Positions 6,850 through 64,000 of a stretch of DNA of 64,000 nt are shown piece after piece. Under the pieces are notes generated by a model. The model searched no databases, was not told the origin of the DNA, and worked only from the letters and a program-made list of their open reading frames with translations. The stretch is from Toxorhynchites rutilus septentrionalis. Lineage: Eukaryota; Arthropoda; Insecta; Diptera; Culicidae. The stretch spans positions 93,060,575 to 93,124,574 of the forward strand of contig NC_073746.1 of the NCBI RefSeq assembly GCF_029784135.1. The letters run 5' to 3'. The first letter of the stretch is position 1. Each line of letters starts with the position of its first letter. The position numbers were made by a program, and so were the translations under genes.

Positions 6850-7740
6850 TTAACCCTCCTGTACTCGCGTGCAAAATCATAACACGTATACTCGCGCACG
6901 GTGTCACAGACCGAAAATTTAACTTCTCTGTAATGTTTCCATTGTGTATTTTTCAAGCTTTATTGGCATTTATTTTGAGAACAGGGGGATGATTGAATGA
7001 AAAAGACTCCAAACAATATGTTTTCTTCGTCTTTATTATGTTTTAATAGCCATCTAATTCGGCCTCCTCAAAATAGAGTAATTTTTGATACTCCAACACA
7101 AATAACGAAATTCGAATTTTTCACTGTTATTAATTAAAAGTAGGCAACTGAATATAATTCATGGAAGTATAAAGAGCTATAAAATAACATAAAAACATAT
7201 TAATCGATTGTGACTTCATTGGAGTAAGAATCAGAACATAGCATAACTCGAAACAAACATATTTTTTATATTTCATGCAGTTGTTGCGTGTTTTTCGGGT
7301 CTTTTACCGAAGAGAAGGATTTATAACGACCTTCTAGATAATTACCAGATGATAAAGATTCTGGAATATAAAGTTTGCATATTTCTAATACTCTTTGTGT
7401 GTTTTCTTGGTAAACTAAGAATTAATGCCTTTTGTTAGATGGGGCATAAAAGGATGGTATAAAAAGATTTCTAGGAACTTCCTTTTCTTTTTCTTGTTTC
7501 CTTGTCGATATTCTCCATTATAAAAAAGACGGGTGGGTAATGTCGGGGACATAACCGGAGTGACGTAGGACTATACAAAGGGGACAGTTTTTGTTAAATA
7601 TATGTTTTAAATATATTGTTTTATTTTCTTCTGATACGTGAATACCTACCTATCTACCTGAAAAACGGATTAGTTTACTGTTTACTCTTTATGAACATGT
7701 TGGTGGTTCTGAAAAGAACCTTTGGCGTTTTGTTTTTGCG

Positions 7741-8752
7741 TTTTGACGTAGGACTACGTCTTTCATTTCTATACTGGGGTGTAAGTTCAATCTTTCGAAA
7801 ACGAAAGCGTTACGCCGGAGAACGAGATTTTGAGCGTTCATAGCTCGTAAACAGCTGAACGAAATTGTTTGATAAACACTTCATTCGAAAGATAAAATGT
7901 CTACGCGTTATATGCTTGTTGCTTTTTGATCCAAAATTTCGTTTCAATAGACCTAAAATTGCTTTCAAAACAGACTATTGAAATCACACCAATCGGTATA
8001 TAAGCGAGTGCCGCTCGAAAATCCACTCAGTTATAATTGCGCAACGATTGAGATACGATCGCTGGAATGGATGGATGTTTCCATAACACAGACTTCAAAA
8101 CCATGGAGCCAGGGGAAATCGGCATTGCAAAATAGATGTAAGCAGTGTATACTTTTGTACTCGCTTGCGTATCTGGAAATTGGAATGTTCCCCTAACACA
8201 GACTACAAAATCATGAAGGGTACTGTGGGTACTTTTGTACTCGCATGCGTTTCTGCAAATCTGCAATTTCTAAACCATGGAGCCAGGGGAAATTGGCATA
8301 GAAAATTAGATGCAAGCAGCGAGTACTATTGTACTTGGATTGACTATGGATTTGATATGGTATGATACGGTGTAGTGGATCTGATCAAAGTGGTTTTATA
8401 TTACATATCGAAGCAGTCACATTTATAAAAGCAGCGTTATAAAATTATTTGTTTACGAATGCTGCAATCGATCGTCGTTATTGAGAAGTTGGAATTGTTG
8501 CGAAGAGGGTCTTATTTTCGCTGTGTAATTCCGAGGAAGAATCCATTCCTTGCGCTGGGTATTTCCGAGGAGGAATCGATTCCCCCTTTGAATGTTAATA
8601 ATTCTTTTCCAGCTAAACGAAGTGGTATAATAATCACTTTATTCGAAAGATGAAACGTCTAAGATTTATATGCTTGTTACTTATTGATTGCTAAGTCAAC
8701 GTTAGTCCTACGTCCACCTTGCGGTCATATCAAAGATATAACCCACTTCTAG
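7741..8752 (+). mobile_element. HX element, promoter-plus-satellite type (nested in H2A-type copy 1)
   Basis: Starts TTTT then the palindrome GACGTAGGACTACGTC at 7745-7760, followed by a 5' block beginning TTTCATTTCTATACTGGGG. It then has a CCAAT sequence, TATATAAG at 7997 and a TCAGT initiator at 8027, followed by about three units of the ~95-bp minisatellite (8080-8340). It ends with the inverted motif TAGTCCTACGTC (8703-8714), a hairpin with arms GGTCATATC and GATATAACC (8723-8743), CCCACTTCTAG and a T-run. It splits the 3' part of the H2A-type element. Confidence 0.75.
7990..8035 (+). promoter_or_regulatory. Core promoter-like module in HX element
   Basis: CCAAT at 7989-7993, TATATAAG starting at 7997 and TCAGTT starting at 8027 (initiator A about 32 bp after the first T of TATA). 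This spacing is canonical for insect TATA plus initiator promoters. Whether it is active is unknown. Confidence 0.5.
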
Positions 8753-8895
8753 TTTTTTTATGAAGGCTCACCACCTAGCCCCGTACATGGAATACATCTT
8801 TACATTGTCTTTGATCCCCATGTACGTCCATCACGACCATTTGTTTTAGAAAGCATTGAACTGTATTTCCTAAACTCTTTTTTAGAAGGTTTAAT

Positions 8896-9336
8896 GGCCC
8901 TGAAAAGCGCCTTGTTTTATGGAATGGTTCCAATTTAGAAAACTTAGTACTCGTGGTTTTGAAAAAAACCATTTTCGAACGCCCTCGATTCCGCCTTGTT
9001 CTGGATTTGCCACCAAAGCAGTTTATATAAAGAACAAACTTTTTTCTTCTGCTACCTGATGCCGTTTTGCGATTGCGTTTGCCACTCGCCACTCGCTGCA
9101 ACTGCCTGTTGTTGTCTTGATGTGTTTTGTTCTGAATGCGAGTTTTATTATCGTCGCGATCAGCTTTACCAGCCAACTCGATCACTTCGGCGGCCGAAAC
9201 TATATAACGCCGGCTAGGTGGACTGGTGCACTGGTACTAACGCGCTCGGCCTAGCTACGGGAAAATCCAGACCAACACGGTTCGAGCGGGATTTTGCCTT
9301 TCCCTTCACTTTTCCTCCTTTGCCATGTCCAGACAT
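8896..9336 (-). pseudogene. Histone H2A pseudogene captured in HX element, copy 1
   Basis: From ATG at 9336 (minus strand) the translation reads [20 protein letters not shown] followed by VGLDFP, almost the exact N-terminus of insect histone H2A (nucleosome core). Bases for the next 12 or so residues (up to the RKG part) are deleted. Further on are [13 protein letters not shown], matching the AERVGAGAPVYLAAV region, then ELAGKADRDDNKTRI, matching the alpha-2/L2 region, in shifted frames. The tyrosine before AERV is a TAG stop. The copy ends with a histone-type 3' stem-loop at 8896-8911 (GGCGCTTTTCAGGGCC on the minus strand, one stem mismatch). It cannot make H2A. Presence of the stem-loop and an upstream promoter means genomic gene capture, not a polyadenylated retrocopy. 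Confidence 0.85.
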
Positions 9337-9415
9337 GGCTGCTTGGGTTGGTTTGTTGATGTGTTGTGATGCGAACTGATGTGGTGTACGGTTTGAATGA
9401 GAATGATCGTTACGG

Positions 9416-9616
9416 AAGGAAGGAAGGAAGGTCTTGTATTATAGAGACTTTAAACTTTTGCAGTTCATTCGTCTCTAGTCTTGAGAAAGGCCCTTTGAAA
9501 ACTCTACTACTCTACTCCAGCGCTACCACCTCCGCCCTCTTGCCTTGAGAAAGGCACTCGATCCCTCACCGTACAGCTCGTCCAGCAACGATGTTGTCCA
9601 GTCGGTGTCCACACAA
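9416..9616 (-). mobile_element. S1 short retroposon inside H2A leader, copy 1
   Basis: About 200 bp inserted in the H2A-type element and flanked by perfect 16-bp duplications AGAATGATCGTTACGG (9400-9415 and 9617-9632). The same insertion at the same site exists in copy 3 (60821-61019) and is absent from copy 2 (about 17001), which shows the empty site. The element contains two small hairpins built on CCTTTCTCAAGG and ends in a GGAAGGAAGG tract. Long duplications and a simple tail indicate LINE-mediated retroposition. A third copy lies at 36332-36534. Confidence 0.8.
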
Positions 9617-9634
9617 AGAATGATCGTTACGGCT

Positions 9635-9685
9635 TGCTGGTCTTGAATTAAAGAGACTTTAAACTCTGAGAGTTCATTCGTCTCT
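9635..9685 (-). mobile_element. Second short insertion at the same target
   Basis: About 51 bp, related to the 3' end of S1 (contains AGAGACTTTAAACT and GTTCATTCGTCTCT), flanked by ATCGTTACGGCT at 9623-9634 and again at 9686-9697. It re-used the target already hit by S1 and is found only in copy 1. Confidence 0.6.
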
Positions 9686-10839
9686 ATCGTTACGGCTGCG
9701 GAGCGGGGATTTTTAAGCTGACTGGCTGGCTCGAGAATTACGCATGTGTGAGACTGCGACCAATGTTTCGTTCATATTTTTTATTTTTCCTTTCCAATCG
9801 TGCTTCATTCTATTTCGCTGCTGCTCTGGTTGCCCGTTTTGGTCGGTACGATTTGAGGAGCACAAAATGGACCAATCAAAAATGGGCGCATAGTGCATTT
9901 GGACAATGCTTGATATTTCACAATTATTCAATTATTTATCTCAAGAAAAATGAAATGTTATTCGTTATGATAGATGCGTAGATATATTTCCTATCAATTG
10001 ATGCAAAAACCTTTGCGATCTATTGAGAAATGCTCGAGTTATAAGCGTTCCAAATCTTGCATTTTTTCCTACTTGTTCAGTGCCTAGATTTCCATTTCAC
10101 CCCCTATATCTTCCGGTTAGACGTAGTCCTACGTCAAAAAATATCCCCGAAACTGTAACTGTTAAAAATTACCATAAGCCACCGATTAGTTTATAGTTTA
10201 CTGTTTACAATTCTTCCACAAGTGTGTATATGTATGACTATTATATTTAGCGAATAACGATACGAAAGTCAAACATTAATATTTTGCTATTGAACGTATG
10301 AATCTAACGACGAATATATCGACGAATAGTTAATATATGGATCCGTTCAAACCAGTTACAAAAGGACTGAAATCAAACAAGAATAGTCCGGTAATGATCT
10401 TATGCATTATATTCAATAAATATTCCACGCCACTAACTTTAATTTATATATTTCATTCAACAATATTCTAGAATATGAAAAAAGGCACCTGTCCAAAAAA
10501 GTTACTCCTATACTCGCGTCGGTGTGTCAGACCGAAAGTGTTAAAAAAGTGACACACGTTCCCTTTGTACCAACACATGCGATACGCTAAACGATGACGA
10601 ACGACGAAAAACGAAGCTAGGGAGAATCGCAAAGCCGTAGTGTTGATATTTTCTGAGAAATGAACGAATTATTGATTTCTCGGTCTGACAGACCAATGCG
10701 CGAGTATAGGAGTGTTAACACGTTCGTCGCCCACTGCGATTCGGTAATGCTTCTTGCAGAGCTAGAATTGATTGTCGGTATGCTAGATAGTAATCAGAGA
10801 AATAAACGAGAAACAATGATTGTTCAGCACAGTTATTAA

Positions 10840-15396: not shown

Positions 15397-15468
15397 AAAA
15401 AAAGACGGGTGGGTAATGTCCGGGATATAACCGGAGTGACGTAGGACTATACAAAGGGGACAGCTTTT

Positions 15469-15794
15469 TTTTTTTTTAATTCGTTTATTTTTACTGGCTC
15501 AGTTACTTAAGTTTAAAGGAGCCGAATTCTTAAATATAATTTTAAAACTATATATATAAACAATTTTCTTACATCTATGGTTAGTAAGGTGGAAAACCGA
15601 TTACTCGCGGTGTACTCGAGTTTAGGAGGGTGACATATTTTTAGGAGAAGGATGGGATATAAGGAAATTGTAACAATGTTGATGAACACTCAATTTATAA
15701 ATCTATTCGTATATCTATAGTGTTTTTAAATTTCAACTTATTCTACTATTTATAGCAAGGGAACGAATTACCCGCAAAGGATGGAAAGGAGGGT
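15469..15794 (-). mobile_element. 5'-truncated retroposon fragment with poly(A) tail
   Basis: A T-run at 15465-15477 (poly(A) on the minus strand) starts a 326-bp insert flanked by exact 13-bp duplications GGGGACAGCTTTT at 15456-15468 and 15795-15807. No coding motif is visible in this short fragment. It is probably the 3' end of a LINE. Confidence 0.8.
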
Positions 15795-16477
15795 GGGGAC
15801 AGCTTTTGTTAAATATATATTTTAAATATATTGTTTTATTTTCTTCTCCTACGTGAATCTACCTGAAAAATGGATTAGTTTACTGTTTACTCTTTATGAA
15901 TATGTTGATGGTTCTGAAAAGAACCTTTGGTGTTGTGTTTTTGTTATCACTCGATATTCCCATCTTGTTCGGTTAAACCTTCCTGTTTAGCTATTGCGTT
16001 TGCCACTCGCCACAGCTTTCACAGTTGGAAAATTTCTTCCCATCCAGCTTGTGACATATTTTACAGTAAATTACATTCAATGGCACGTCGCATTACCACC
16101 ACTCAATATCGGATTGGAGGTAATTTTAACCTGTAATTGAACATTTGCGATGACATTGGTACAGTGTCGACTTTCAATGTGGGGTCATAATTTAGACCCC
16201 GAACTCTATGTTTCAAAATGTCCAACTAAACATGTCGCATTACAGGTCCGTCCAATTAGCTAAATGTCGAGATAAGTGTAAATTACTGACTTTCAATCTA
16301 GAAGCAATTTAAGAATTGGTGAAAATCAATAAGCTAAGAACAACTGCCAAATTCACATACTCATCATATCCTGGCAAACAAATTATGAAAAAATCAATTT
16401 GTGTTTTATTTTATTTTGGATATTGTTTTAGAAAGCATTGAACTGTATTTCCTAAACTCTTTTTTGGAAGGTTTAAT

Positions 16478-16936
16478 GGCCCTGTAAAGCGCCTTGTTTT
16501 ATGGAATGGTTCCAACTTAGAAAACTTAGTACTCGTGGTTTTGAAAAAAACCATTTCGAACGCCCTCGATGCCGCCTTGTTCTGGATTTGCCACCAAAGC
16601 AGTTTGTATAAAGAACAAACTTTTTTCTTCTGCTACCTGATGCCGTTTTGCGATTGCGTTTGCCACTCGCCACTCGCTGCAACTGCCTGTTGTCTTGATG
16701 TCCACCGAACCGAATGTGTTCTGTTTCGAATGCGGGTTTTCTTATCGTCGCGAGCAGCTTTGCCAGCTAACTCGATCGCTTCGGCGGCCGAAATTATATA
16801 ACGCCGGCTAGGTGGACTGGTGCACTGGTACTAACGCGCTCGGCCTAGCTACCCTTGCGGGGAACTCCAGATCAACACGGTTCGAGCGGGATTTTGCCTT
16901 TCCCTTCACTTTTCCTCCTTTACCATGTCCACACAT
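16478..16936 (-). pseudogene. Histone H2A pseudogene captured in HX element, copy 2
   Basis: ATG at 16936 (minus strand) gives [20 protein letters not shown] then VDLEFPARVA, again the H2A N-terminus with about nine residues after FP missing. Downstream, in other frames, are [13 protein letters not shown] and AIELAGKAARDDKKTRI. The same TAG stop replaces tyrosine before AERV as in copies 1 and 3. The 3' stem-loop at 16478-16493 is GGCGCTTTACAGGGCC on the minus strand; the loop T has changed to A relative to copies 1 and 3. Non-functional. Confidence 0.85.
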
Positions 16937-17456
16937 GGCTGCTTGGGTTGGTTTGTTGATGTGTTGTGATGCGAACCGATGTGGTGTACGGTTTGAATGA
17001 GAATGATCGTTACGGCAGCGGAGCGGGGATTTTTAAGCTGACTGGCTGGCTCGAGAATTACGCATGTGTGAGACTGCGACCAATGTTTCGTTCATTTTTT
17101 TCTTTTTCCTTTCCAATGCTTCATTCTATTTCGCTGCTGCTCTGGTTGCCCATTTTGGTCGGTACGATTTGAGGAGCACAAAATGGACCAATCAAAAATG
17201 GGCACATAGTGCATTTTGACAATGCTTGATATTTCACAATTATTCAATTATTTATCTCAAGAAAAATGAAATGTTATTCGTTATGATAGATGCGTAGATA
17301 TATTTCCTATCAATTGATGCAAAAACCTTTGCGATCTATTGAGAAATGCTCGAGTTATAAGCGTTCCAAATCTTGCATTTTTTCCTACTTGTTCAGTGCC
17401 TAGATTTCCATTTCACCCCCCTATATCTTCCGGTTAGACGTAGTCCTACGTCAAAA

Positions 17457-20029
17457 AAAAAAAACTCCGGTTGTAGAGAAAGAGATAACTGAAAATTCAT
17501 TTTCAATTCCTAATTTCGAAAACGATAAGGCTTGGTTGGAAGTGTTTTATGCATCGACCTCATAGTAGCGAATTATTTTGCACAGCAAAAAAGCTTGTGA
17601 AAATTTACAGTTTTATTTTTTGACCAAACAGCTAGGAGTCTCGACGTCATTCACCCTTGATAGGGCTACCAAATAAGTTACTTAGCTCTTAAATTTATAT
17701 AATGTATGTTTTCGTCGGCACTAATTTCATAGTCCGGTAGAAGTCTTGACATTTACGGAAACTAATGGATTGCTTTACCGATAAGCATCTTAAAACATTA
17801 TGTATATCAGAATCAATCATCTCACTATAGAAATAATAATAAAGATTTCTCTCCAACTTCAGAAAACACCGCAAATCATAACGAGAGAACGATATTCTGT
17901 TCAAATCTATAAAATAAAGTGCACAGTGTCCGTTGTTTTGATTGATACTAATACGACGGAGAGTTATCTTGTCAATTATTCAGCACACTCTCGACGGAAC
18001 AACGGGAACATACACCAGGCAGATAATTCACCACTTTCTATCCCATAAGATGTCCATCCGCTACAGGTCACATCACTCAGAAGGGCAAAAGGTGGTAGAG
18101 GGAAGTGATTGAGATGATCATCATCATGTGATGAGATATAGCTTCATGGTGGTTATTTGGATTTGCCCAGCACAGATTATGAACAGACGCGCGGGCGCGC
18201 GTGTAATGTCCCGATTCTCCGCCGCCGAGGAGAGTCGCCAACGGTGTCAATCTCGTCGTGCTCATCCGTTCTTGCGTGCCGGTGCTTCAAATGGTGATTG
18301 AGAGCGAGCCTTTCGCTGTCAATCATAATCGGAATCCCCTCGAGCTGACTTGGGGCATCATCATCAACTCAGGCTCAGCCGGAGCCAAGCGTCGTCATCG
18401 AAGTCCAACGATGAGCAGATCGGCGCTCGGAATTGCCAAGTGGGGGTGAATAATTTCCAACCGGACATTAATGGTGATGATTTTCAAATCGTAACTCTTG
18501 TTTGCAGCAACGAATGCGAGTTGCAACGGTAATGGCAATAAACTTGATGTGGGAATGAAATCCGATATCCAAATGCACAAATCTATAATACAAAGTGCCA
18601 TAATTTGACAAAGTCGACGAGTATAATAAGTGTCAAGTGAAGCTTCACCTTTTGTCGTGCAATTCGCGTCGTTAAATTTTCTTATCTCACTTAACGAATC
18701 AATTCGATTATAAATTATCCCATCAGTGATTAATCGTGCTCAATTACGATGATAGTTTTCCCGCACCTTCCAAATGTCCCCGGATTCCCTATTTGACCAT
18801 CATTCAGAGTCCGGTGTAATAACTTCACCAAGCCATCATAAATTATACTTGTCCAACTAAGCAAACATCATCAACGCTGTCGTTTCCCCTCGTCCCACGG
18901 TCCGATACCACCCAAATGATTCAACGCAGGAAGACGACTAACTGTCAACCTTTCCCGTCATCATCAACAAACGGCAGAAGAAAGAGTGTCCCCACTGCAG
19001 CTCCGTTCAATCAATCCTTCTACCAGGCGTCTCATTCGCCTTCCTTCCTTCCTCCCCCTTCCTGCACCCCGTTCTCTGTCCAGGAAACAAGCGGAAAGAC
19101 GCGCAGAGGTCGTGATAAAGATGTGAATCAGCCACCAACGGATATAATTCAACGGGCGACGCTGAAATTGATTGACGATTTAGCATTTTTCATGACACAC
19201 TCATACCCACGGACGGATGACGGCGGAGAAAGTGAGAGATCGAGCACCGGGGATGAGACATGAGGATTTGTCACCCCTGGGTCCGATTGATCGTGGAGAA
19301 TGCATTTCCTTCTGCAGCATCCACTGGACCATGGACTTCTGGAAGAGTGCAGCGTCTCAGCGCGAGCGACGAAAAGCGTAAAAATAAAACGAGATGACAA
19401 TCTGATGTTCTATTATCAAGATTGCACTTTCTCATCACTGCGAATGCCCTGCTCGGTTACACGGGCGGCGGTTCGTCCAGATGACCGACGATTTATTACT
19501 GTCCAGCAGTTTAGGTCACGTTGATGCTAGGCGAGAAAGGTTCATATATTTGTCGGTGTGACTTGACAACCTTTTGACAGGTTTTTAAGTATTTTCAGGT
19601 AAAAAATAACACATTTTTGGAAGAATAACCCATGTTATCATAAAACTGAGAACATTTCCTATAAGAATCATCGGTTATATGATACTTTTGTGACGTGCCA
19701 ATTCCCGAGTCTTTGTGTTTTGTTACTTTTGATGTCCCTAGGGTAAACATTTTTCTTTTGATTGCTAGTTAGTAAATGTTTTCTTCTAAAAAATCACGTT
19801 TATTTATTCTAGATACTCAAATTTAGTCAAACAATTCATAGCTCAAGAAGAACGATTACAAAAATCCAAAATAATTGTTTTTCTTATAGAAAACCTTCAG
19901 AAGGTAATGATCCATATCACATTCATTATAAATATATAGGGTAAGTGACCCAATTAAGATAGTTTTCCCGCATTAAGCTTTTGAATGGCGAACAAAGTAG
20001 CTTGTGTGCAAATTGTGCTCCGTTCAGTT
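17457..20029. other. Low-repeat stretch without identifiable gene
   Basis: No known mobile element recognised. GC content rises between about 18000 and 19500. The longest open frame is 18916-19263 on the plus strand, with a serine/proline-rich, low-complexity translation and no domain. Tracts such as 'GATGATCATCATCATG' and 'CTTCCTTCCTCC' are simple-sequence. It could be regulatory or untranslated sequence of a host gene. A donor- or acceptor-bounded coding exon is not visible. Confidence 0.35.
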
Positions 20030-20586
20030 TGATATTTTGCATTGTGAAATTGTGTGCAAACGCGAAATAAATTGTGTTCAACGTTCAGCTAAATTGATGA
20101 TTTATCCAGATAAGTATAAGTGCATGCTTTAATTTACTCTGGTGCTCATCAATTGAATAAATAATAACGCTACGGTCTGCTATCGATTTGGTGGCGACTG
20201 TAGCGGCATTATTGTTTGAACGTCCTTTTGTGTTTAATGTGTGTTTTTGTCTCGGCTGTTGCTGCCAGTTATACGGGTTATTGCATGCAAGATGAGTGTG
20301 AGGATTTGCGGTGCTCGATATCACCGACGCTGCACATCTCTTACAAAGCGGCTGCTAAGTTGATAACGGAGAATGAAAATATTCAGTTTAAATGTAACGA
20401 ATGTTTGTTGAATAACAATAATTGTGCGTGAGACGATGTTCTGGACTGTTCGATGAGCGGTTAGTGGAACAGGAAACGGAGAAACTTTTCAGATCTTTCG
20501 ATGAACTTCTAGCGCAGAAGATTGGAAGTATTGAAATCAGTATTTCCCAACATTTGAAGGATTTAAAAAGTTTGTTTAATGAAAAA

Positions 20587-36331: not shown

Positions 36332-36534
36332 GCATTCTTTGTATGGACACCGACTGGACAACATCGTTGCTGGACGAGCTGGACGGCGCGGAATCGAGTG
36401 CCTTTCTCAAGGCAAGAGGGTGGAGGTGGTAGTGCTGGAGTAGAGTAGAGTTTTCAAAGGGCCTTTCTCAAGGCTAGAGACGAATGAACTGAAAAAGTTT
36501 AAATCTTTATAATACAATACCTTACCTTACCGGG
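36332..36534 (+). mobile_element. S1 short retroposon, copy 3
   Basis: Matches 60821-61019 and the reverse of 9416-9616 (GGACACCGACTGGACAACAT, the two CCTTTCTCAAGG hairpins, GACGAATGAACTG). Ends in ACCTTACCTTACC. GGATTTCTCCA occurs before (36155-36165) and after (about 36536-36546), consistent with an 11-bp target duplication; the MITE then landed at its left edge. Confidence 0.75.
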
Positions 36535-40989: not shown

Positions 40990-41265
40990 TTATGATAACG
41001 GAAAACAGACAATGTTAACTGCTTGGAAAAAAAACTGAATTATGCCACACAGCTTGTACTCTGCTGTAGCATCCATCGATGGGAATTCGCTAATGAGTTT
41101 GTCAAGAGCGACCGCCTTCACCACCTGCGGGGGGAGCTTGATTTTGGTTGCTGCCTGGGTAACAGCGTTTACATTTTCGACCGACGCGCCGAAATCGCCT
41201 ACTTCGCTATTGTTCGATGCGGTGTCACACTCGCGAAGGCTCGGTTCAGTGCGAGCGCTTTTCAC
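40990..41265 (-). CDS. Unrecognised 91-codon ORF downstream of an HX promoter
   Basis: The minus-strand frame starts MKSARTEPSLRECDTASNNS and continues with a mixed polar sequence (KIKLPPQVVKAVALDKLI, then MDATAEYKLCGII). It ends in the inverted arm. I do not recognise a family. Codon composition looks more protein-like than neighbouring frames, and it lies about 300 bp downstream of a TATA plus initiator in the same orientation. It may be a fragment of a captured host gene. It could also be chance; only one copy is visible in the window. Confidence 0.25.
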   Translation of the reverse strand: MKSARTEPSLRECDTASNNSEVGDFGASVENVNAVTQAATKIKLPPQVVKAVALDKLISEFPSMDATAEYKLCGIIQFFFQAVNIVCFPLS

Positions 41266-43352: not shown

Positions 43353-44330
43353 TTTTTCTTTATTCGAAGCAGTTAACATCGTATGTTTTCCTTCATCATA
43401 AGAGCATCATTGGTGCCTTGCATAAATGCATCGAAGTGACGCTATGGCGAAGCAGGCATTAAGGTTGTGCGCCACATAAATATTTGTGGAATATCAAGCT
43501 AAACCATAGTGAATGTCTTGCTGGAATATTGTTATTTGGTTTCGCGTGCCAATCGCAAAACTGCCTTCAACAAGGATGGCATTTGCGCTTATCTTGATCA
43601 TAATGAAGCAATTTTCTAGGTTATTGAGATTTACAGACATGATTTATTTCGTTTTTTTAGTCACCAGGTGTCGTTCTATAGTTTTGCATGTGATTAGGTT
43701 TCGCTTGCCAGTAGCAAAACTTTCCTCACTAAGGATAATATTTTGCGCTTATCTCGAGCATGAGAAGGTACACAACATTTTTCGGGGCCAGTAATATTAA
43801 CAGAAGCGTTTCTTTTAAGAATAGCGCAAAATGATGAGAAGTGTTCATATTCCTAGTCGCTTCATGCCACCAATGTATGACTCTGTATGCATGCTAAGTT
43901 GACCGCTTGTTTGATGCTGGTTGGTTTTCGTTGTACGAACGATGTCTAGAGGTACGATTCTACTGAGACAATAATAAATAACATGTAGCATGATATTCTT
44001 CAACTGATTCTACAATAAAAAAAACATCACAGGGCGACCAAACCGTCTACTAAACAGTTATTTCTAAAATTTCGCAGCATTCTACAATAAAATCCGAAGT
44101 TATTACCAAGCGACTTGAACAAAATAACAGCGTAGTTCTATTTCAACAATGTGATCGTGTCTTGGACACAACCTGCTATAAATTTTTTTGTATCGCTTGC
44201 AAAGCTCAAATACGAATTCTCAACGCAATCGATGGTTTTAAAATAATTATCAAGTCTGTCAGAAGTCAAACGTTTGCCAATTTGAGATTCACAGAACTCA
44301 AGATGGCTGCTTTGAGCTACAAAATTTTAA

Positions 44331-45040: not shown

Positions 45041-47440
45041 CGTATTGAGAGCATTGCGAAATTCGTAAATCCAAAAATAACACTTTCAGCACAGTCGTGT
45101 ACATGTTGGTTTTTTTAATAACCTCTAGTGTATAATTATAGATAGTGTAAATTTGGATAGAAAACATATGCTTTATCTGCAAATCCATTAAGCATAAATC
45201 GGATGATCGTTCGGGTTGACCATTATGAACCAACCATAAAAAAAATAATCTCTGGGACAATCGCTTTAGTTTTTTCTTCATTTTATCAAGTTAATTGCGA
45301 TATAAACCTCAACGTAAAATATTATTTGGGATGAATGTTAGATATGCAAAATGCGTTTGCTTGAAATGTTGAGACAAAATAGCTCAAATTACCCAAACCA
45401 AAAGTCGGCTGTGGTGAATCTAGAGATCCTTTGAATAAAAAATAAAATCATCAACACTGTATTCAAAAACTATATCAAAACACAAAGATTCTGAATCCAT
45501 CCTTATTTTTTCGTGCTGACAATTGAAGACCGGCAACGGAGTCATCGGCCATCGCCCGATAATGCAATTAGCGAACGCATTAAATTCAATTCCAACGCCT
45601 GTAACGATTTGCACGCTTCAACAGCTCCGCACGTCAACACGCATCGAAATAATGCGTCTCAGGAGACGCACACACAAAGCGAGGGATATCGGAGACATGA
45701 ATCTGCTCGCGAAACACAATCGGCTTTCTCGGCGGGGGCGTAATAAGTCACGGAATAGACGTTTAGCGACCGCATGTCAGAGTGCACTCATATTTTATGA
45801 AGTCTATCACAGCTCAAGCACCTGAAAAGTGGGTGGTTGAATTGTTGTTTTTTTTTGTTTGCGGCTTCCGTTTTTGTGGGTGGTAAGTTCTATTTTTTTC
45901 TCGAATGATTAATTATATTAACCTTTTTCCACCAGTTCATTGAATATCTCTAATCTTCTGATCATCATCGTGTTGTGGTGATCAGAAGATTATAAAAACA
46001 TTAACGAAATATGGGTAGCACAAAACTCCAAAACGGTTATAAATCTGCCTGGTGCGGGCAGCTGAATATAAACTTTGATGTATTGATCATAAATTGGCGT
46101 ATCTGTTTTCCTCACAATCTCAGGAAAAAAAGTTCAATTGATTAGGTCTCAAAAAAAGCAACAGGTGTCTAGACTGGTTAAAAGTCAAAACAATTAAAAA
46201 TCTCTTCTACCAGGATACGTGATTGTGTTTATGTATGAAAATCGACTAAACAAAATCGCATCATTAGGAATCGATAAAACTAATCGATTCCAGATGCTAT
46301 TAAGCGGAATCATATTAGCATTGGGGGAATGCTCATGCTATTAATCATAACAACAAAAATATTCCAATAAAATATTAATAAGGCTGTTCGAAGTCCTGTT
46401 GTTGTTTCATCACAGCGAAAAGAAATCAATTTCACGACGCTTGTGTTTCGGGGGGACGAGGCCTTGAACGATTGCTTTCGCCTGAGTGGAAAGAAAACCG
46501 GTCAACGTATTGCTGTTCAAAAGTCGCCTTAATTAAATTTAGCGGAACCCCATTCAATCAACGCATGCACAATGATCCAGCACGCATCGTTCGTGCAGCC
46601 TCCTGTGTAGCTGTGATCACACTGACGGCCCAGTGGTCAACGTCCAGCCCCGCTTGTGATGGCCCATAAATCACGAGATATTATTTCCTGTTCGAAATTG
46701 ATAAAACATAAAAATCCAGCACCAGCCGTATATATCATCGCCGTCATTCCAGTTTATCACTCATTAAACGGTGATCAAGCCATGAAACAGGGACCGTTTG
46801 TTCCCTCGCGTCGCCTGACGCCCGGAATAGAGAAACATGCGTCAATACGCGCAAAATGTCCGGAGCCCCTTCCCGCCTTCCATTCTGTAAATGACTTATC
46901 CCGGCGAGAAACGGTTGAGTTACGTTATCTGATTTGCATTCTCACCGGACCTAGTTATGGGTTGCTCTTCCAAGCAAGATATTTGCGTGGAATTGAAATT
47001 GTTATGTTCTTTCTTGCTCTTAATTTATAAAAAGTCTTTTTCAAAGTGTTGCTACACCTGTGTAGACTTCGGTCATATAAAGTCATATTTTGTCTTCTCA
47101 CGAAGCACGATGGTTAGTCATGAACGATAACAAACAAACATATTATTTGGGTTTGGCCTTGACGATCGGCTGTTTTTCCGTTTTGATCATGTAATTATTG
47201 GAGTTGTCAGTCCAATTGGAATTCACCTTGACGCATTGGTGTGGTCTGGAGCGTGAATACGAATTGAGAAACTATTTATTCACCCTCCATATATATTTTT
47301 CCACTTTTTCGTCCATACCAGCTTTCTGCATATCTCATTCCACTTTGGCACCTTTTATCGTGATATGCACCATCCAACTACTAATCACCATGCTTCTGTC
47401 ATCATCACTCGATTGTACTCGATTGATGGATCGAACAAAT
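45041..47440. other. Low-repeat stretch, no gene identified
   Basis: Contains GC-richer text at 45520-45840 and 46430-46990 with open frames on the plus strand (45523-45825, 46656-47030), none with a recognisable domain. A strong hairpin lies at 45951-45992. Likely intergenic or intronic host DNA. Confidence 0.35.
45951..45992. other. Perfect 14-bp stem hairpin
   Basis: TAATCTTCTGATCA and TGATCAGAAGATTA flank a 14-base loop. No T-run suggests a Pol III terminator, and it does not resemble HX or histone stem-loops. Function unknown. Confidence 0.5.
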
Positions 47441-47463
47441 GATTCCTATCAATCAAACTAAAC

Positions 47464-47612
47464 GGCTCTTTTTCGGACTACAAAATTATAAGATAATTCA
47501 ATACTGTTATGTTTCAAATACATCCACAATCAATACGATGCGAATAGCCTAAAGAAATCCTACGTCAACTATGCGGCCGTGTCTCCGACACAATTCTCCT
47601 GTAACTTTGTAT
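47464..47612 (+). mobile_element. HX element 3' end with stem-loop-like sequence (5' part not identified)
   Basis: TCCTACGTCAACTATGCGG at 47559, then the hairpin arms CGTGTC and GACACA (47578-47592) and TTCTCCTG, matching the 3' ends at 20598 and 44154. About 110 bp upstream is AAACGGCTCTTTTTCGGACT (47461-47480), similar to a histone 3' stem-loop with a decayed right arm. The body upstream is not clearly HX. Confidence 0.6.
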
Positions 47613-48433: not shown

Positions 48434-49732
48434 AAGGGTGTCCACGATGAAATTGCCACACTATGAAATTGCTCTAACTTTGTAACCGTTGGGTAGAATT
48501 TAATGAAAATTTGGGTGGATTTAGTTCATAGTGCATTGTTTACATACTGCAAGTTTTAAAGTCCTGTGATCAAAACTCGCGGAAATGGAGTCGAAAGAAC
48601 AGCTCGTGCGTGATAAAATCTTGCGCATTCATCACGAGAACAAGGATCTCTCGCATCGTTCCATCGCTAAAACGTTGGGAATCGCGAATTCCACGGTGTC
48701 GCGAGTGATTAAGCGGTTCGAGAAACGATTGAAGCCCAGAAGTGAAGGAAAAAGTATTCCGTACAACACCAAAAATCACAACCGCGTAGTTGGGGCCTTC
48801 AACCGAAACCCGAACGCCTCCGTTCGGGATGTGGCTAAGAAGCTGCACCTAAGCCGAAGTTTTGTCCAGAAGGCCAAAACTAAGGCTGGGCTTCGAACGT
48901 TCAAGGTACAAAAGGCCCCTAATCGCGACGAGAAGCAGAACAAGTCCGCCAAAACCCGTGCCAGGAAGTTGTACCTCAACATGCTGACGAAAGTTGAATG
49001 CTGCATCATGGACGACGAAACATATGTGAAGGCCGACTTTAAACAGATCCCCGGCAACCTGTTTTTCACGGCTAAGGATGAGTTCAGCGTTCCGGAGCAT
49101 GTCCGCACTCAGAAGATGTCCAAATTTGCGAAGAAATTCCTGGTTTGGCAAGCCATCTGCACGTGCGGGAAGCGGAGTGCACCTTTCGTGACCCAGGACA
49201 CGATGAACGGACAGGTGTACATGAAAGAGTGGCTCCAGAAGCGGTTGCTTCCTCTCCTGAAGGCCCACAACGTCCCAACAATCTTCTGGCCGGATTTGGC
49301 CTCATGCCACTACTCCAAGGACGTGCTGAAGTGGTATAAGGACAATAAGGTCAATTTCGTGCCGAAAATGTTCAACCCTCCCAACACTCCGGAGCTCCGC
49401 CCCATCGAGAAGTACTGGGCGATTATGAAGCAGCACCTTCTTAAACGACCTAAGGTAGTGAAGACAGTCGAGGAACTGAAGAAAGTATGGGTTTACATGC
49501 AAAAAACGGTTGATTCACAGGTTGTGCAGAATTTTGTGGCCGGGGTTAAGGCCAAGGTGAGGGCATTTGCGTATGGACTGTAAATAAAATACGAGTAAAA
49601 TGGTAAAATGAAGTGTAATAGTTATTTTTCAATCTCTTTTTTTTTTTTTTTTGAAAATTTGATGGCAATCGGATGAAAACTAGAATTTTGCGAATCAATT
49701 TTGTGTGTGGCAATTTCATCGTGGACACTCTT
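48434..49732 (+). mobile_element. ITmD37E-type transposon, copy 3 (different subfamily)
   Basis: 1299 bp flanked by TA (48432-48433, 49733-49734). Termini AAGGGTGTCCACGATGAAAT on the left and AAGAGTGTCCACGATGAAAT read from the right continue through GCCACAC. Termini and transposase differ from copies 1 and 2 but share the family's GTGTC start. Internal text has no truncation. Confidence 0.95.
48585..49583 (+). CDS. DD37E transposase, intact
   Basis: 332 codons from MESKEQLVRDKILRI. Two helix-turn-helix regions (SHRSIAKTLGIANSTVSRVI at about 23-42; ASVRDVAKKLHLSRSFV at about 77-93), a basic linker (KAPNRDEKQNKSAKTRARKL), then the DDE core: MDDETYVK, WPDLASCHYS and ELRPIEKYW with 37 residues between the second D and E. 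All catalytic residues are present, and length and both termini are intact, so this is the best candidate for a recently or still active gene in the window. It moves DNA by cut-and-paste into TA. Its nearest relatives here are the transposases at 22679 and 37932, which align throughout. Confidence 0.95.
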   Translation: MESKEQLVRDKILRIHHENKDLSHRSIAKTLGIANSTVSRVIKRFEKRLKPRSEGKSIPYNTKNHNRVVGAFNRNPNASVRDVAKKLHLSRSFVQKAKTKAGLRTFKVQKAPNRDEKQNKSAKTRARKLYLNMLTKVECCIMDDETYVKADFKQIPGNLFFTAKDEFSVPEHVRTQKMSKFAKKFLVWQAICTCGKRSAPFVTQDTMNGQVYMKEWLQKRLLPLLKAHNVPTIFWPDLASCHYSKDVLKWYKDNKVNFVPKMFNPPNTPELRPIEKYWAIMKQHLLKRPKVVKTVEELKKVWVYMQKTVDSQVVQNFVAGVKAKVRAFAYGL

Positions 49733-53331: not shown

Positions 53332-54957
53332 TTTTGACGTGGGACTACGTCTAACCGGAGTATATGGGGGGTAAAATGAAAGCCTAAACAAGGAACATGC
53401 AAGAAAAAATGAAAGATTCCGAATGCTTAGAACTTGAGCATTTCTTACTAGAACGGAAAGATGTTTGCATCAATTGATAGGGAATATTTCTACGCTTCTA
53501 TCGCAATTAATAAAATGTTATTTCTCATTAGATAAACAATTGAATAACTGTAAAATGTTAAGTGTTATCTAAACGTCCTAACTGCCTCGTTTTGATTGGC
53601 CCGATTAACGGTTTCCCCAATACAGCCATCAAAACCAAGCAGCCTTGGGAAAATCGGCATGGCAAATACATGGAGGTACGGGGACTTTTGTTCTCACCGA
53701 AATGTGTTCCCTAACACAGATTTCAAAACCAAACAGCGTTGGAGAAATCTGCATTGCAAATACACGAAAGTTGGGGGGTATTTTTGTTCCGACTGGAATG
53801 TGTTTCCCAAACACAGACTTTAAATCCATGGAGCGTGGGGAAATTGGCGTTGCAAATTCATGCAAGTCGGGGGCATTTTTGTTCCGACAGAAATGTGTTT
53901 CCCTAACACAGACTTGGTGTCCAAGAAGGAGTCTTGGGAAATTGACATTGCTAATTAATGCAGGTCGGGGGTATTTTTGTTCCGATTGAAATGTGCTTAC
54001 TTAACACAGACTTCAAATCCATGGAGTGTGGGGAAATTGCCATTGCAATTGCCAGTCGGGGACATTTTTATACCGGTTGAAATGTGTTTCCACAACACAG
54101 ACTTCAGAACCAAGGTGTTTGAAGAAATTGGCATTGCAAACCCACGCAGGTCGGGGGTATTTTTGTTCCGACTGAAATGTGTACCTAATGTACCTAACAC
54201 AGACTCCAAAACCAAGATTTCATCATATCAAACGTAAAAGGACTGTCATTAAATTTACTTGTAACGAAGAACACAATCTTGGTAAGCATGGGTAAGTTTA
54301 TAACAAGTGCGAATCTCATGAAGAGGAAAGTTCCCCACTTCCATCGTGCCTATCTTATCGGACAGAAATGATTGCTGCTGACAGGTGAGGCAGAGAGTTT
54401 TCGTTGTCTGTGAACAGGTCGGAGTATGTTAAGGCATATGCTAACCATATTTTGTTTATTTTTAGGTATCAATTCTCGATACATAAATTATGGCACCCTA
54501 CAGAGCACAAATAAATAGCTTTACTCTCGTTTTTTCTCCCATCGATGATTGCTTTCAGATTGTACCGAAGTCCCAGACTGCTGCACGAATTGTAATGTAT
54601 ATTGCCCCAGGCTCGGGTTGAAAGAAAAGCTCTTCTGTTGATGAGTGCTATGTGATGCATATGCGGCATATTTCTGCCAAAGGAGAAGCAGCACAGACTT
54701 CAAAACCAAGATGTCATCATACTAAACTTACTGTCATTAAATTTACTTATAACGAAGAACATAAACTATCACAATGCATTAATTGACCTTACATGGCATT
54801 ATACAACCTTTTTACTCACAAAGCAAATATATTGGATTCAATCCAATTTAGAAATTATTTTATTCTATCAAAAAATTAATCAATACAAACAAATGATTGC
54901 TAAGTTAAGGTAGTCCCACGTCAACCTTGCGGTTATATCGTAGATATAACCCACCCA
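53332..54957 (+). mobile_element. HX element, satellite type, nested in hAT pseudogene
   Basis: TTTT then GACGTGGGACTACGTC (53336-53351), a 5' block almost the same as in the H2A type (CTAACCGGAGTATATGGGGG; TTTGCATCAATTGATAGG), then TTGATTGGCCCGATTAACGG and six to seven minisatellite units. A partial duplication of the post-satellite segment follows (CTGTCATTAAATTTACTT at about 54243 and 54733). The 3' end is TAGTCCCACGTCAACC at 54911, the perfect hairpin GGTTATATC/GATATAACC at 54931-54951, CCCACCCA and a T-run. Both copies of the motif carry the same G (GTGGGAC). Confidence 0.85.
53621..54215 (+). repeat. ~95-bp minisatellite, 6-7 units
   Basis: TAACACAGACTTCAAAACC-like text recurs at 53621, 53712, 53810, 53904, 54002, 54093 and 54195 (spacings 91-102). 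Each unit contains GGGGAAAT.GGCATTGCAAAT, GTCGGGGG.ATTTTTGTTCCG and GAAATGTGTT. Units differ by 10-25%, so this is not a CRISPR-like array and has no unique spacers. Confidence 0.85.
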
Positions 54958-55385
54958 TTTTTTCTCATTTGCTTTATTACCTCCACGAAAAAACTGCGAC
55001 AAATATACTTTGAAAGGATCTGCCTTTCGCTGTCGATTGTTCAGATAATTTTATCTGCTGCTATTCCAACCTGAAATTTCTTGCCGCTTTTCAAATGATC
55101 TTCAAATTTAATAGCATTGGACACTGAAACAACGTAAGATTCCTCGCAGATATGAGTGAGAATTATGAAATAAAAATCTTTCAGCTCTCCATGTAGCATA
55201 GTGAATTCTGGATTTTCCGACTGGAACAAACGATTCAATCTACGTCGCACCGTCCGACGCGAATCCTTTCAGACGATCCTTGTAAGGAATTCCGTCCTTA
55301 TGAAACTGATCAATCATTGCATTGTAAATGCTTTCATGATTAGCAGCACCTAGCGATACTGCGACGTAAAAGTCATCATGTACCT

Positions 55386-60373: not shown

Positions 60374-60779
60374 TTTTGACGTAGGACTACGTCTAACCGG
60401 AAGATATAGGGGGTGAAATGAAAATCTAGGCACTGAACAAGTAGGAAAAAAAGCAAGATTTGAAACGCTTATAACTCGAGCATTTCTCAATAGATCGCAA
60501 AGGTTTTTGCATCAATCGATAGGAAATACTTCTACGCATCTATCATAACGAATAACATTTCATTTTTCTTGAGATAAATAATTGAATAATTGTGGAATAT
60601 CAAGCATTGTCCAAATGCACTATGTGCCCATTTTTGATAGGTCAATTTTGTGCTCCTCAAATCGTACCGACCAAAACGGGCAACCAGAGCAGCAGCGAAA
60701 TACAATGAAGCACGATTGGAAAGGAAAAAGAAAACATTGATCGCAGTCTCACACATGCGTAATTCTCGAGCCAGCCAGT

Positions 60780-60820
60780 CAGCTTAAAAATCCCCGCTCC
60801 GCTGCCGTAACGATCATTCT
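60780..60820 (+). promoter_or_regulatory. Histone-like core promoter of captured H2A
   Basis: CTTAAAAATCCCC at 60783 (TATA-like) and TCATTC with its A at 60816, about 32 bp downstream. A leader of about 80 bp (without S1) reaches the H2A ATG, which is normal for histone genes. S1 inserted right at the presumed start site. Confidence 0.5.
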
Positions 60821-61019
60821 TTGTGTGGACACCGACTGGACAACATCGTTGCTGGACGGGCTGGACGGCGAGGGATCGAGTGCCTTTCTCAAGGCAAGAG
60901 GGCGGAGGTGGTAGCGCTGAAGTAGAATAGAGTAGAGTTTTCAAAGGGCCTTTCTCAAGGCTAGAGACGAATGAACTGCAAAAGTTTAAAGTCTCTATAA
61001 TACAATACCTTCCTTCCTT
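60821..61019 (+). mobile_element. S1 short retroposon in H2A leader, copy 2
   Basis: Flanked by CCGTAACGATCATTCT at 60805-60820 and 61020-61035 (16 bp, exact). Same insertion point as at 9416-9616. Includes hairpins TGCCTTTCTCAAGGCA and GGCCTTTCTCAAGGCT. Confidence 0.85.
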
Positions 61020-61098
61020 CCGTAACGATCATTCTCATCCAAACCGTACACCACATCGTTTCGCATCACATCACATCAACAAACCAACACAAGCAGCC

Positions 61099-61585
61099 AT
61101 GGTTGGATATGGCAAAGGAGGAAAAGTGAAGATAAAGGCAAAATCCCGCTCGAAAAGTGTTGGTTTGCAATTCCCCATAGGTATATTCGCCAATTGCTCC
61201 GCAAGGGTAGCTAGGCCGAGCGCGTTACTACCAGTGCATCAGTCCACCTAGTTGGCGTTACATAGTTTCGGCCGCCGAAGTGATCGAGTTGGCTGGCAAA
61301 GCTGCTCGCGACGATAAGAAAACCCGCATTCAGAACAGACCACATTCAGTTCGGGGACATCAAGACAACAACGAGCAGTTGCAGCGAGTGGCGAGTGGCA
61401 AACGCAATCGCAAAACGGCAGCAAGTAGCATAAGAAAAAAGTTTGTTCTTTATACAAACTGCTTTGGTGACAAATCCAGAACAAGTCGGCATCGAGGGCG
61501 TTCGAAAAGGGTTTTTTTTCAAAACCACGAGTACTAAATTTTCTAAGTTGGAACCATTCCATAAAACACGGCGCTTTTCAGGGCC
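61099..61585 (+). pseudogene. Histone H2A pseudogene captured in HX element, copy 3
   Basis: Starts MVGYGKGGKVKIKAKSRSKS then VGLQFPIG, aligned to the H2A N-terminal tail. After a 1-base deletion the next frame reads LLRKGS*AERV followed by SVHLVGV (H2A [21 protein letters not shown]). A further shift gives SAAEVIELAGKAARDDKKTR (AAEVLELAGNAARDNKKTR), then DNNEQLQRVASG for RNDEELNKLLSG; the docking domain beyond is unrecognisable. The same TAG as in copies 1 and 2 replaces tyrosine. The 3' stem-loop GGCGCTTTTCAGGGCC at 61570-61585 has one G-G mismatch. This copy keeps residues deleted in the other two. Confidence 0.9.
61570..61585 (+). terminator. Histone mRNA 3' stem-loop, remnant
   Basis: GGCGCTTTTCAGGGCC fits the metazoan histone consensus (6-bp stem, 4-base TTTC loop) at 15 of 16 positions. 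In live histone genes stem-loop-binding protein uses it in place of poly(A). Equivalent sites are 8896-8911 and 16478-16493 on the minus strand. Confidence 0.8.
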
Positions 61586-62134
61586 ATTAAACCTTTCAAA
61601 GAAGAGTTATTAAAAGTTTTTCACAATACCAATGCATTCTAAAGTGACATAATATGACATATAATATAAACTGATTTATTTTGTTTATGCTTGTTTTTGA
61701 ACTTATTGGTGGTTGGGGTCTTTCAAATTGATCATTCAGTTTTCACAAACCCATGCATGGTTTCCGAATTAAAAGTGGCTTCAAATTACAACACATTGTA
61801 TGCAGGTTGGTATTAACTAATTTTCTCGGTAGCAAGAACTGCCTTCTTTGGTTGATAACTGATGTTGAAATTTGACTGACGTTACATCTGCATTGTATAG
61901 AAAAAAAAACTACGGAGCAACATGATGAGCTATGTATTTCCTGCTGCTCTGTTCTTATTTTAAAGGACTTTAATCCGAAGGTCATCCATCCCTGTATTTA
62001 CTGTTGGTTTGTCAGAACGCTTATAGCTCGTAAGAAAATAAAACAATATATTTAAAATATATATTCAGCAAAAGCTGTCCCCTTTGTATAGTCCTACGTC
62101 ACTCCGGTTATGTCCCCGACATTACCCACCCGTC

Positions 62135-63450
62135 TTTTGACGTGGGACTACGTCTAACCGGAATATATGGAGGGTAAAATGAAAACCTAAACACAGAACA
62201 TGCAGGAAAAAATTAAAGATTTCGAATGCTTATAGCTCGAACATTTCGTACTGGATAGGAGAGATGTTTGCATCACTTGATAGGGAATATTTCTACGCAT
62301 CTATCGCAACTAACAAAATGTTGTTTTTCATTAGATAAACAATTGAATAACTGTAAAATATTAGGCGTTATCTAAACGCCCTAACTGCATCGTTTTGATT
62401 GGCCCGATTTACGGTTTCCCTAACACAGCCATCAAAACCAAGCAGCCTTGGGGAAATCGGCATTGCAAATACATGAAAGTAGGGGGACTTTTGTTCTCAT
62501 CGAAAAATGTGTCCTAACACAGACTTTAAAACCAAGCAGCGAAATCAGCATTGCAAGCACACGAAAGAAAGGCGAGTGAAACTTAAAGCCAAAAAGAAGA
62601 AAAAGAACACACGAAAGTAGGGGGAGCTTTTGTTCCCACCGAAATGTGTTCCCTAATAGAGATTTCTAAACCAAGGTGCCTGGAGAAATCGGTATTTCAA
62701 ATTCATGCAAGTCGGGGGTATTTTTGTTCCGACTGGAATGTGTTTCCCTAACACAGACTTCAAATCCATGAAGCGTGGGGAAATCGGTATTGCGAATTCA
62801 TACAAATCGGAGGTATTTTTGTTCCGATTGAAATGTGTTTCCCTAACACAGACTTCAAAAACGAGGTTTCTGGGGAAATCGGCTCTGCAAATAAATGCAA
62901 ACTGCGAGTACTTTTGTCCTCGCTTGCCTTTGTGCAGAGTGGAATATGTCTGTCCTAACATGATCTTCTATACTTAGGAACCTGGGAAAATCGTGCAGCC
63001 ACTAGAAGCGAATGAACTTCCCAGTTTCAAGCAAATTCGAGATTCGAGAAGTATGTACACTTTTGGGATGTAAACTTCAGAGGGAAATGTAAAATAAAAT
63101 AATCGTTTGATATTTTTTTTTTTGTCTTTATTGGAAAGATTTTCAGCCTTAGGCTGGTTCATCAAACGTTTGATAATTCTTCCGTACATATATTTTGTTC
63201 TAGTCATCATACCAAACGTAAAAGGTCCGTCATTAAATTTACTTGTAACGAAGAACAATCAATCACAATAAAGGAATTGACTTTACACGGCATTTGTTCA
63301 TTTTTTTCACTCACAGAGCAAATATATTGAACTCAATTGAATTTGGAAACTGTTTCATTCAATCAAGAATTTAATCAATACAAACGAATGATTGCTAAGC
63401 TAAGGTAGTTCCACGTGAACCTTGCGGTTATATCATAGTTATAACCCACT
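62135..63450 (+). mobile_element. HX element, satellite type, abutting H2A-type copy 3
   Basis: GACGTGGGACTACGTC at 62139-62154, 5' block as at 53332, about five minisatellite units (62415-62900), CGTCATTAAATTTACTTGTA at about 63228, inverted motif TAGTTCCACGTGAACC at 63406, hairpin GGTTATATC/GTTATAACC at 63426-63446 (one mismatch), CCCACTAA and a T-run. It shares the T-run with the preceding H2A-type element, giving a head-to-tail pair. Confidence 0.85.
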
Positions 63451-64000
63451 AATTTTTTTTCAATTAAATTTCAAATGAAAGGATTATTACTATTCACAAA
63501 CAGATGGTTGGTGTAATTGGCGCATCACTAACCCGTGACAGAACTGTGCCCAAAATAAAAACAAGAGACATAACAAGGGGATGAGCACTACGCGCTAACC
63601 TTGAATTATGGGTATACAAACTGCAAATAACTTCTATCGTACACAATTTAGTCCTGTTACAACAACAGCCAGCAGTATAAAACATTCGCTTCGGTGTCCC
63701 ATCTCTCGCAGCCCGCGAGTTCCATTTGACAACCAGACAAAGACAAGCACTGTCCGGATGGATATAACAAGTCTCAGAAAAGCTGCGTTCCCATTTGGCG
63801 TGAAATTATTTCATTCTTGCTCGTAACATAATTCAGACCGGGCACCTCCAAGGGTGGAGTGTGATGTAGTGATCCAGTGAACCAGACTCTGTGTGATTGG
63901 TGAACACTCGCCAGTCGCGGAGAATTCTTTGTTTTTCGGTTCCAAACTACTACACCAGTCAATAAGAGATGGCCCCCTACCGACCAACAAAATCCAACAA
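63451..64000. other. Possible host promoter region at window edge
   Basis: After AT-rich linker the GC content rises. TATAAAA stands at 63676-63682, followed by GC-richer text (TTCGGTGTCCCATCTCTCGC) of the kind seen in leaders. Open frames 63608-63826 (plus) and 63774-63962 (minus) have no recognisable domain. A gene might start here and run past the window end. Confidence 0.25.

Follow-up and report, generated by a model that had tools for sequence, protein, structure and literature searches.

Three copies of one dispersed element, each carrying the remains of a histone H2A gene, lie in the window, that is, in the whole stretch of 64 kb analysed here. Judged by their ends and anatomy, these copies (c1, c2 and c3) are Helentron-type non-autonomous elements (HINEs), and the reading favoured here, with a probability of about 0.9, is that a Helentron-type element took a divergent H2B-H2A pair as DNA, that the genes decayed and the H2A was duplicated, and that the dead passenger spread as a HINE. 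The initial annotation had placed one such element at 7527-10138, 15397-17456 and 60374-62134; H2A is found in all three copies, and their first 450 bp agree pairwise at 93.7-97.8%. The copies and their histone-related features are the following:

7522..10141, reverse strand: c1, a reverse copy carrying a nested HINE (about 7741-8759)
9336 (ATG) to 9058, reverse strand: H2A-1 of c1
8975-8930 and 8916-8870, reverse strand: loops of c1
7725-7681, reverse strand: 3'-most loop of c1
15397..17460, reverse strand: c2, a reverse copy with a SINE-free leader
16936 (ATG) to 16639, reverse strand: H2A-1 of c2
15930-15886, reverse strand: 3'-most loop of c2, 41.0 bits
60374..62138, forward strand: c3, HINE-type element, with T-runs at 60374-60377 (5') and 62135-62138 (3')
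60651..60816, forward strand: stretch preceding H2A-1 of c3, with TATA-like TTAAAAAT (60784-60791) and no homology to the sampled histone promoters
60815..61021, forward strand: SINE-like insertion within the leader, with GTAACGAT on either side (60807-60814 and 61022-61029)
61028..61098, forward strand: leader of H2A, whose homology to the parent-type cluster L050 starts at the cap-site-like ATCATTCTC
61099..61419, forward strand: H2A-1 pseudogene of c3, residues 1-106 recognisable, with shared 1-nt deletions and a TAG stop
61565..61610, forward strand: decayed histone 3' stem-loop of c3 with AAGAAGAG downstream, 25.0 bits

The identity of the gene is well established. Fly H2A gave summed tblastn E values of 3.9e-16 (7527-10138), 1.4e-15 (15397-17456) and 5e-14 (60374-62134), and frameshift-aware alignment, spanning H2A residues 1 to 106-107 in each copy, scored 220, 225 and 252 for c1, c2 and c3, the best of 12 shuffles each reaching 44, 40 and 36. 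Chance similarity to H2A is ruled out by these shuffles, and the recognition of H2A in all three copies can be upheld. The 49-residue open piece at 61099-61245 matched PDB H2A chains (E 2e-6); Pfam gave no family for it, and a large protein collection no match for the 51-codon piece from 61099. As regards H2B, H3 and H4, nothing convincing was obtained in the window by tblastn with the fly histones (best: H4 on the H2A start, E 0.03).

The homology of H2A-1 to L050 begins at ATCATTCTC (61028), which we take to lie near a histone cap-site motif, and tapers off from residue 85 to residue 107. The TATA-like promoter described earlier is retained in part: TTAAAAAT is present, but the window copies show no match to the sampled histone promoters, since 60651-60816, compared 7 times with stretches of promoter from three clusters, was matched in score by 36 to 370 of 500 shuffles, and the promoter claimed for the H2A of the window thus reduces to a TATA-like sequence. 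The control, the H2B/H2A-2 promoter, scored 228 against at most 41 for its shuffles; a kept histone promoter is found in the longer relatives described below (bidirectional, between H2B and H2A), but not in the window copies. The SINE-like insertion of the leader is present in c1 and c3, while c2 has the clean site, a distribution which suggests that copies kept multiplying after the insert had landed. The repeat, with a (CCTT)n tail, lies at 60815-61021, at about 9418-9686 in c1, where, judged by eye, two insertions hit almost the same position in the H2A leader, and at 36333-36528 in another HINE; it also occurs in two histone arrays (L049, 6516-6593, and L051, 2418-2563).

Longer relatives were found by a search of the whole genome with the H2A piece (902.6 Mb in 514 contigs; C1, C2 and C3 of 206, 345 and 333 Mb). 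Its 4806 first-look candidates are unverified and do not constitute a copy count; the 40 that were scored, the window copy included, were all significant, and the piece has at least 40 matches. The 39 matches other than the window's own are 92-98% identical to it and, with repeated places removed, provide a sample of 29 distinct loci. Between the same ends, the long relatives hold H2A-1 (plus strand), an antisense H2B and H2A-2 (plus strand). Antisense H2B was detected (tblastn, E<=1e-3) in 15 of the 20 loci of eight kb, and 13 of these 15 have another H2A behind it in sense orientation; no H2B was found at E 1e-3 in L034, L037, L040, L042 and L043. Loci with H2B and both ends (L029, L030, L035, L036, L038 and L039) span 3.4-4.25 kb (about 4.3 kb at most), and frameshift-aware scores in L036 were 279 for H2A-1, 351 for H2B and 224 for H2A-2, as against 34, 44 and 46 for the best of 10 shuffles.

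Relative to the L036 element (element positions), c3 retains 1-457 plus 439-1029, 2590-3061 and 3338-3430, so that H2B, the bidirectional promoter and the body of the second H2A are missing from it, and its deletion joint falls within a 50-bp stretch present in both H2A 3' loop regions. Positions 1-1594 and the 3' end are retained in c2, and the 5' part up to 1058, the nested HINE and the 3' end make up c1. Since no more than parts of the L036 element are retained, the window copies are regarded as internally deleted descendants. A MITE-like stretch in c2 (16030-16423) is part of the long element's H2A-1/H2B interval, and the nested HINE of c1 (7741-8759), of a further type, has TATATAAG together with a CCAAT-like box in the 5' portion.

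The H2A was dead before the element multiplied, because one frameshift is common to 32 of 32 copies and a stop to 31. These lesions were scored in 32 distinct copies (44 rows, less 12 repeats; c1 excluded by a length and identity filter), which are the best matches to c3 and therefore biased toward its relatives. The second 1-nt deletion of H2A-1 is present in 32/32, the first in 31/32 (in c2 it is masked by a larger deletion) and the TAG stop in 31/32, L024 having TTG instead. Among the copies examined there is no open histone frame, so that the hope of finding one with an open H2A was disappointed, and a functional H2A supply is ruled out by the lesions which these copies have in common. The mean difference among H2A-1 copies is 5.1%, and that of their consensus from L050 18.6%; substitutions among copies amount to 4.0, 3.1 and 3.2% at the three codon positions. 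Given the shared lesions and this flat profile, the histone DNA would be a hitch-hiker without coding function. Furthermore, H2A-2 has the second frameshift of H2A-1 in 17 of 17 distinct loci, lacks the first in 6 of 6 readable loci and has the TAG in 5 of 8 readable ones. Because both share a frameshift, one captured H2A is considered to have lost its frame and then to have been duplicated in the element, a course of events with which sequence exchange between H2A-1 and H2A-2 (gene conversion) would look alike.

Matches to the histone 3' stem-loop, which the initial annotation describes, exist in all three copies, but that of c3 is decayed, its 25.0 bits being below the gathering score of Histone3 (RF00032), 34 bits. 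Seven matches at E<=0.022 were obtained in the 64 kb, six within c1-c3 and one outside (20722-20676); two of the seven, the 3'-most loops of c2 (41.0 bits) and c1 (40.5 bits), are above the gathering score, and five (24.2-26.5 bits), that of c3 among them, below it. An assignment of the 3'-most loop to H2A as its own tail was not supported: for c2 10 of 200 shuffles were equally good, and in L030 it sits some 700 bp past the H2A-2 loop. Near the 3'-most loop of L031, no H3 or H4 coding sequence rose above shuffles (5 shuffles only).

It could be argued from these loops, several per element and the 3'-most intact in c1 and c2, that the histone parts were retained because they serve the element, with S-phase transcription supplied by the promoter and non-polyadenylated ends by the 3' loop, the more so as the ends, the promoter stretch and the leader vary slightly less among copies (3.3-3.5%) than the H2A-1 coding part (5.5%). 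This explanation is nevertheless quite improbable: the differences between regions are small (and the H2A-2 row of this comparison mixes in H2A-1), the bidirectional promoter (4.2%) is unremarkable, inspection by eye shows a broken 3'-most loop in L034, L037 and L042, none of the remaining loops reaches the gathering score, and the open histone frame is missing from every copy examined.

Capture at the DNA level, as was initially proposed, is borne out by the long relatives, which hold H2A, antisense H2B, a shared promoter and decayed loops on both strands. In L030, L031 and L037 (three of five loci searched), minus-strand loops lie behind the H2B place and plus-strand loops behind H2A-2, every one under the gathering score; for L035 and L036 no minus-strand loop was reported. 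A core-histone family search, in which 150 of 7890 candidates were scored, revealed several arrays, and parts of three clusters, all with divergent H2A/H2B and divergent H3/H4 pairs, were compared. Clearly the closest of the three is L050, which lies on the same contig (C3:233.68 Mb). Positions 1664-2453 of the L036 element align to 2072-2949 of L050 with 73.8% identity over 893 columns (E 7e-171), in a single piece covering H2B, the intergenic promoter and H2A-2; the L030 element, without the start of H2A-2, reaches 79.7% over 639 columns, and the H2B/H2A-2 promoter 80% over 200 columns (E 5e-44). With the other two clusters, similarity comprises coding parts (68-73%), plus SINE and short loop stretches. 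Likewise, the segment 61028-61329 of c3 aligned to L050 with E 9e-62, and to the two others with 5e-28 and 2e-27. Nevertheless, L050 is the closest relative among the clusters compared and not necessarily the source itself, because two of its genes are frameshifted:

2060-2470 of L050: H2B, frameshifted near residue 13 (decay or assembly error)
1241-1300 of L050: H4, frameshifted in the last three codons (decay or assembly error)

The H2A and H3 of this unit are intact, as are H2A, H2B and H4 in the other two clusters.

Since H2B, the shared promoter and H2A align to L050 in one piece, capture of DNA is to be preferred to that of a processed mRNA. Histone mRNA is cleaved before a purine-rich downstream element, which the mature mRNA does not contain; the purine-rich sequence present downstream of the loops points to DNA-level capture, as do the promoter and the antisense gene. 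The same features make it highly improbable that processed H2A retrocopies landed in a repeat, even if H2A-1 resembles the closest cluster from near the cap site onward, as a copied transcript would: the long relatives hold an antisense H2B, and a bidirectional promoter between the genes.

The assignment of the captured DNA to a HINE is based on palindromic subterminal inverted repeats (subTIRs), a 3' palindrome, T-run borders and one empty T-run site. The terminal features of c3 are:

60378..60393, forward strand: 5' palindromic subTIR, GACGTAGGACTACGTC
62089..62100, forward strand: 3' subTIR, TAGTCCTACGTC, 12 bp, reverse complement of the 5' repeat
62106..62126, forward strand: 3' palindrome, GGTTATGTCCCCGACATTACC, 8 nt ahead of the terminal T-run

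Thus, c3 starts with TTTT-GACGTAGGACTACGTC and finishes with TAGTCCTACGTC, GGTTATGTCCCCGACATTACC, CACCCGTC and TTTT (62135-62138); with this border included, it ends at 62138 and not at 62134, and a further HINE-like unit abuts at 62139 with no gap. The motif GACGTAG occurs 25 times in the window versus 2.7 expected, about nine times the frequency in shuffles, and the histone DNA lies inside the units, in keeping with the GACGTAG-type ends first ascribed to them. The subTIRs of c3 (GACGTAGGACTA / TAGTCCTACGTC) are alike at both ends over 12 bp, where at least 11 bp are called for; those of the sister copy at 53332 (GACGTGGGACTAC / GTAGTCCCACGTC) are altered at both ends together relative to c1-c3, and in the unit at 62139 the 3' subTIR is decayed. 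According to PMC4067079, the distance to the 3' end in mite HINEs is 8-35 bp for the palindrome and about 38-60 bp for the 3' subTIR. Here, the palindrome, with 9-nt arms and one mismatch, lies 8 nt ahead of the T-run, within that range, and the 3' subTIR 34 nt ahead of it (36-39 if 2-5 Ts are counted in), on the border of the published range.

With respect to the target, the 5' end is visible in 20 of the 29 distinct loci and at least TT precedes all 20; both ends are visible in 16 of the 29 (1.7-4.25 kb, repeated rows removed), and the 30-nt flanks of these two-ended copies differ (by eye). In L034, a copy sits inside a T-run that belongs to the H2A 3' region of a different copy, a site which is empty in c1 and c2; GAAATGGTTTTT precedes the insertion, a T-run with CAAAACCACGAG follows it, and the usual CCGTC is missing before the 3' T-run of the inserted element. 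Insertion at TT, with variable T borders and no other target site duplication, is therefore observed (20/20 5' ends; one filled/empty pair). A canonical Helitron (5' TC, 3' CTRR, A/T target) was rejected, as the ends are TTTT-GACGTAG and CCCGTC-TTTT. The dispersed, non-autonomous and rolling-circle-like nature proposed earlier accordingly takes the more precise form of the Helentron/HINE type. Histone arrays are numerous and scattered in this genome, but the least probable explanation is that of histone orphons or segmental duplications of an array later hit by HINEs, with no transposed cassette, given the 16 distinct two-ended copies of one kind with differing flanks and the copy in a T-run that is empty in others. 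Two sister HINEs (53332-54965 and 62139-63455, ends by eye) are 77-79% similar to c1-c3 in the first 275 bp and have tandem repeats (CCCTAACACAGACTTCAAAACC...) where c1-c3 have histone DNA.

Capture by a Helentron-type element, the preferred reading, could have proceeded as follows. An element of the Helentron lineage, presumably moved in trans by a Rep/helicase/endonuclease, would, within a histone array, have continued copying beyond its own terminus or changed template. The alignment shows that the divergent H2B and H2A were taken up as DNA together with the promoter between them and their 3' processing signals, the loops being found in decayed form; the captured genes decayed, and one H2A was then duplicated inside the element, as the frameshift found in both shows, gene conversion apart. 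The dead passenger would have spread as a HINE into T-runs, to which the borders and the empty site point, probably by a rolling-circle mechanism, the three copies of the window being later, internally deleted descendants.

The supposed novelty of histone capture by a rolling-circle-like element was too strong a claim. In 2014, a Helentron present in eight copies in Culex quinquefasciatus, Helentron-Cq-32A, was described as carrying fragments of H4 and of H15 (H1-type), with 84% and 83% similarity to their putative parents (Thomas et al. 2014, PMC4067079). Both elements have palindromic subTIRs, a 3' stem loop, T strings and broken histone genes (two in the Culex element) copied in a mosquito genome; they differ in that H4/H15 and eight copies there stand against H2A-H2B-H2A with a bidirectional promoter and decayed 3' loops here, where the H2A piece has 40 matches or more and the H2A-1 consensus is about 81% identical to the closest cluster. 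HINEs of the DINE-1 kind share subTIRs, 3' palindrome, T-run target, head-to-tail neighbours and, in the sister copies, central tandem repeats, whereas no gene fragment was found in the mite HINEs studied in PMC4067079, in contrast with the histone cargo here. Helitrons of maize and bats, per the same source, also pick up gene pieces as DNA and amplify them, but with TC and CTRR ends and insertion between A and T, whereas the elements here end in T-runs. Apart from PMC4067079, titles and abstract beginnings in the open-licence PMC literature disclosed no capture of H2A or H2B by a Helentron or Helitron. PMC7754599 considers histone genes from the angle of tandem repetition and has no bearing on the matter. 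Since the Culex element is in print and no later report appeared in that search, the present one is a further case of histone capture by a Helentron and not the first, although it surpasses the Culex element in both cargo and copies.

That mosquito Helentrons capture histone genes repeatedly, with H4/H15 in Culex, H2B-H2A here and perhaps a third case in another HINE family of the window (loop at 20722-20676, scoring best, if weakly, to an H4 tail), is rather doubtful; if true, histone arrays would be a capture hot spot, or promoters and loops would give S-phase-tied transcription. A larger histone capture with a nameable closest cluster allows borders, age and mode of capture to be read from the sequence. 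Moreover, the element may spread histone promoters and 3' loops, and the thousands of unverified H2A-like candidates may cause false histone genes and misplaced histone reads.

A second HINE-like family is present in the window at 20585-20860 and 40180-40990 (reverse strand) and at 47323-47608 and 43395-44189 (forward strand), with the palindrome GTTGTGTC..GACACGAC. Toward their 3' ends, two of its copies share a histone-like loop in decayed form (20722-20676, 24.9 bits), that of the partner copy not being reported by Rfam, and no coding match to any of the four core histones was found in the family. With the loop included, one copy scored 65 with the H4 of L050, where shuffles did not exceed 38, and also 61 with the H3 of L049, which was the best fit of the other copy; with the loop removed, the H4 score was reached by 2 of 500 shuffles (best of 22 comparisons) in the former copy and by 298 of 500 in the latter. 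An H4 origin of this loop is suggestive at most. Exact-pattern scans of viral contigs and of genome contigs gave 0 matches each. Finally, by eye, the long ORFs at 22679-23737, 38280-38960 and 48570-49583 resemble mariner/Tc1-type transposases, and that at 26043-28019 a non-LTR reverse transcriptase.
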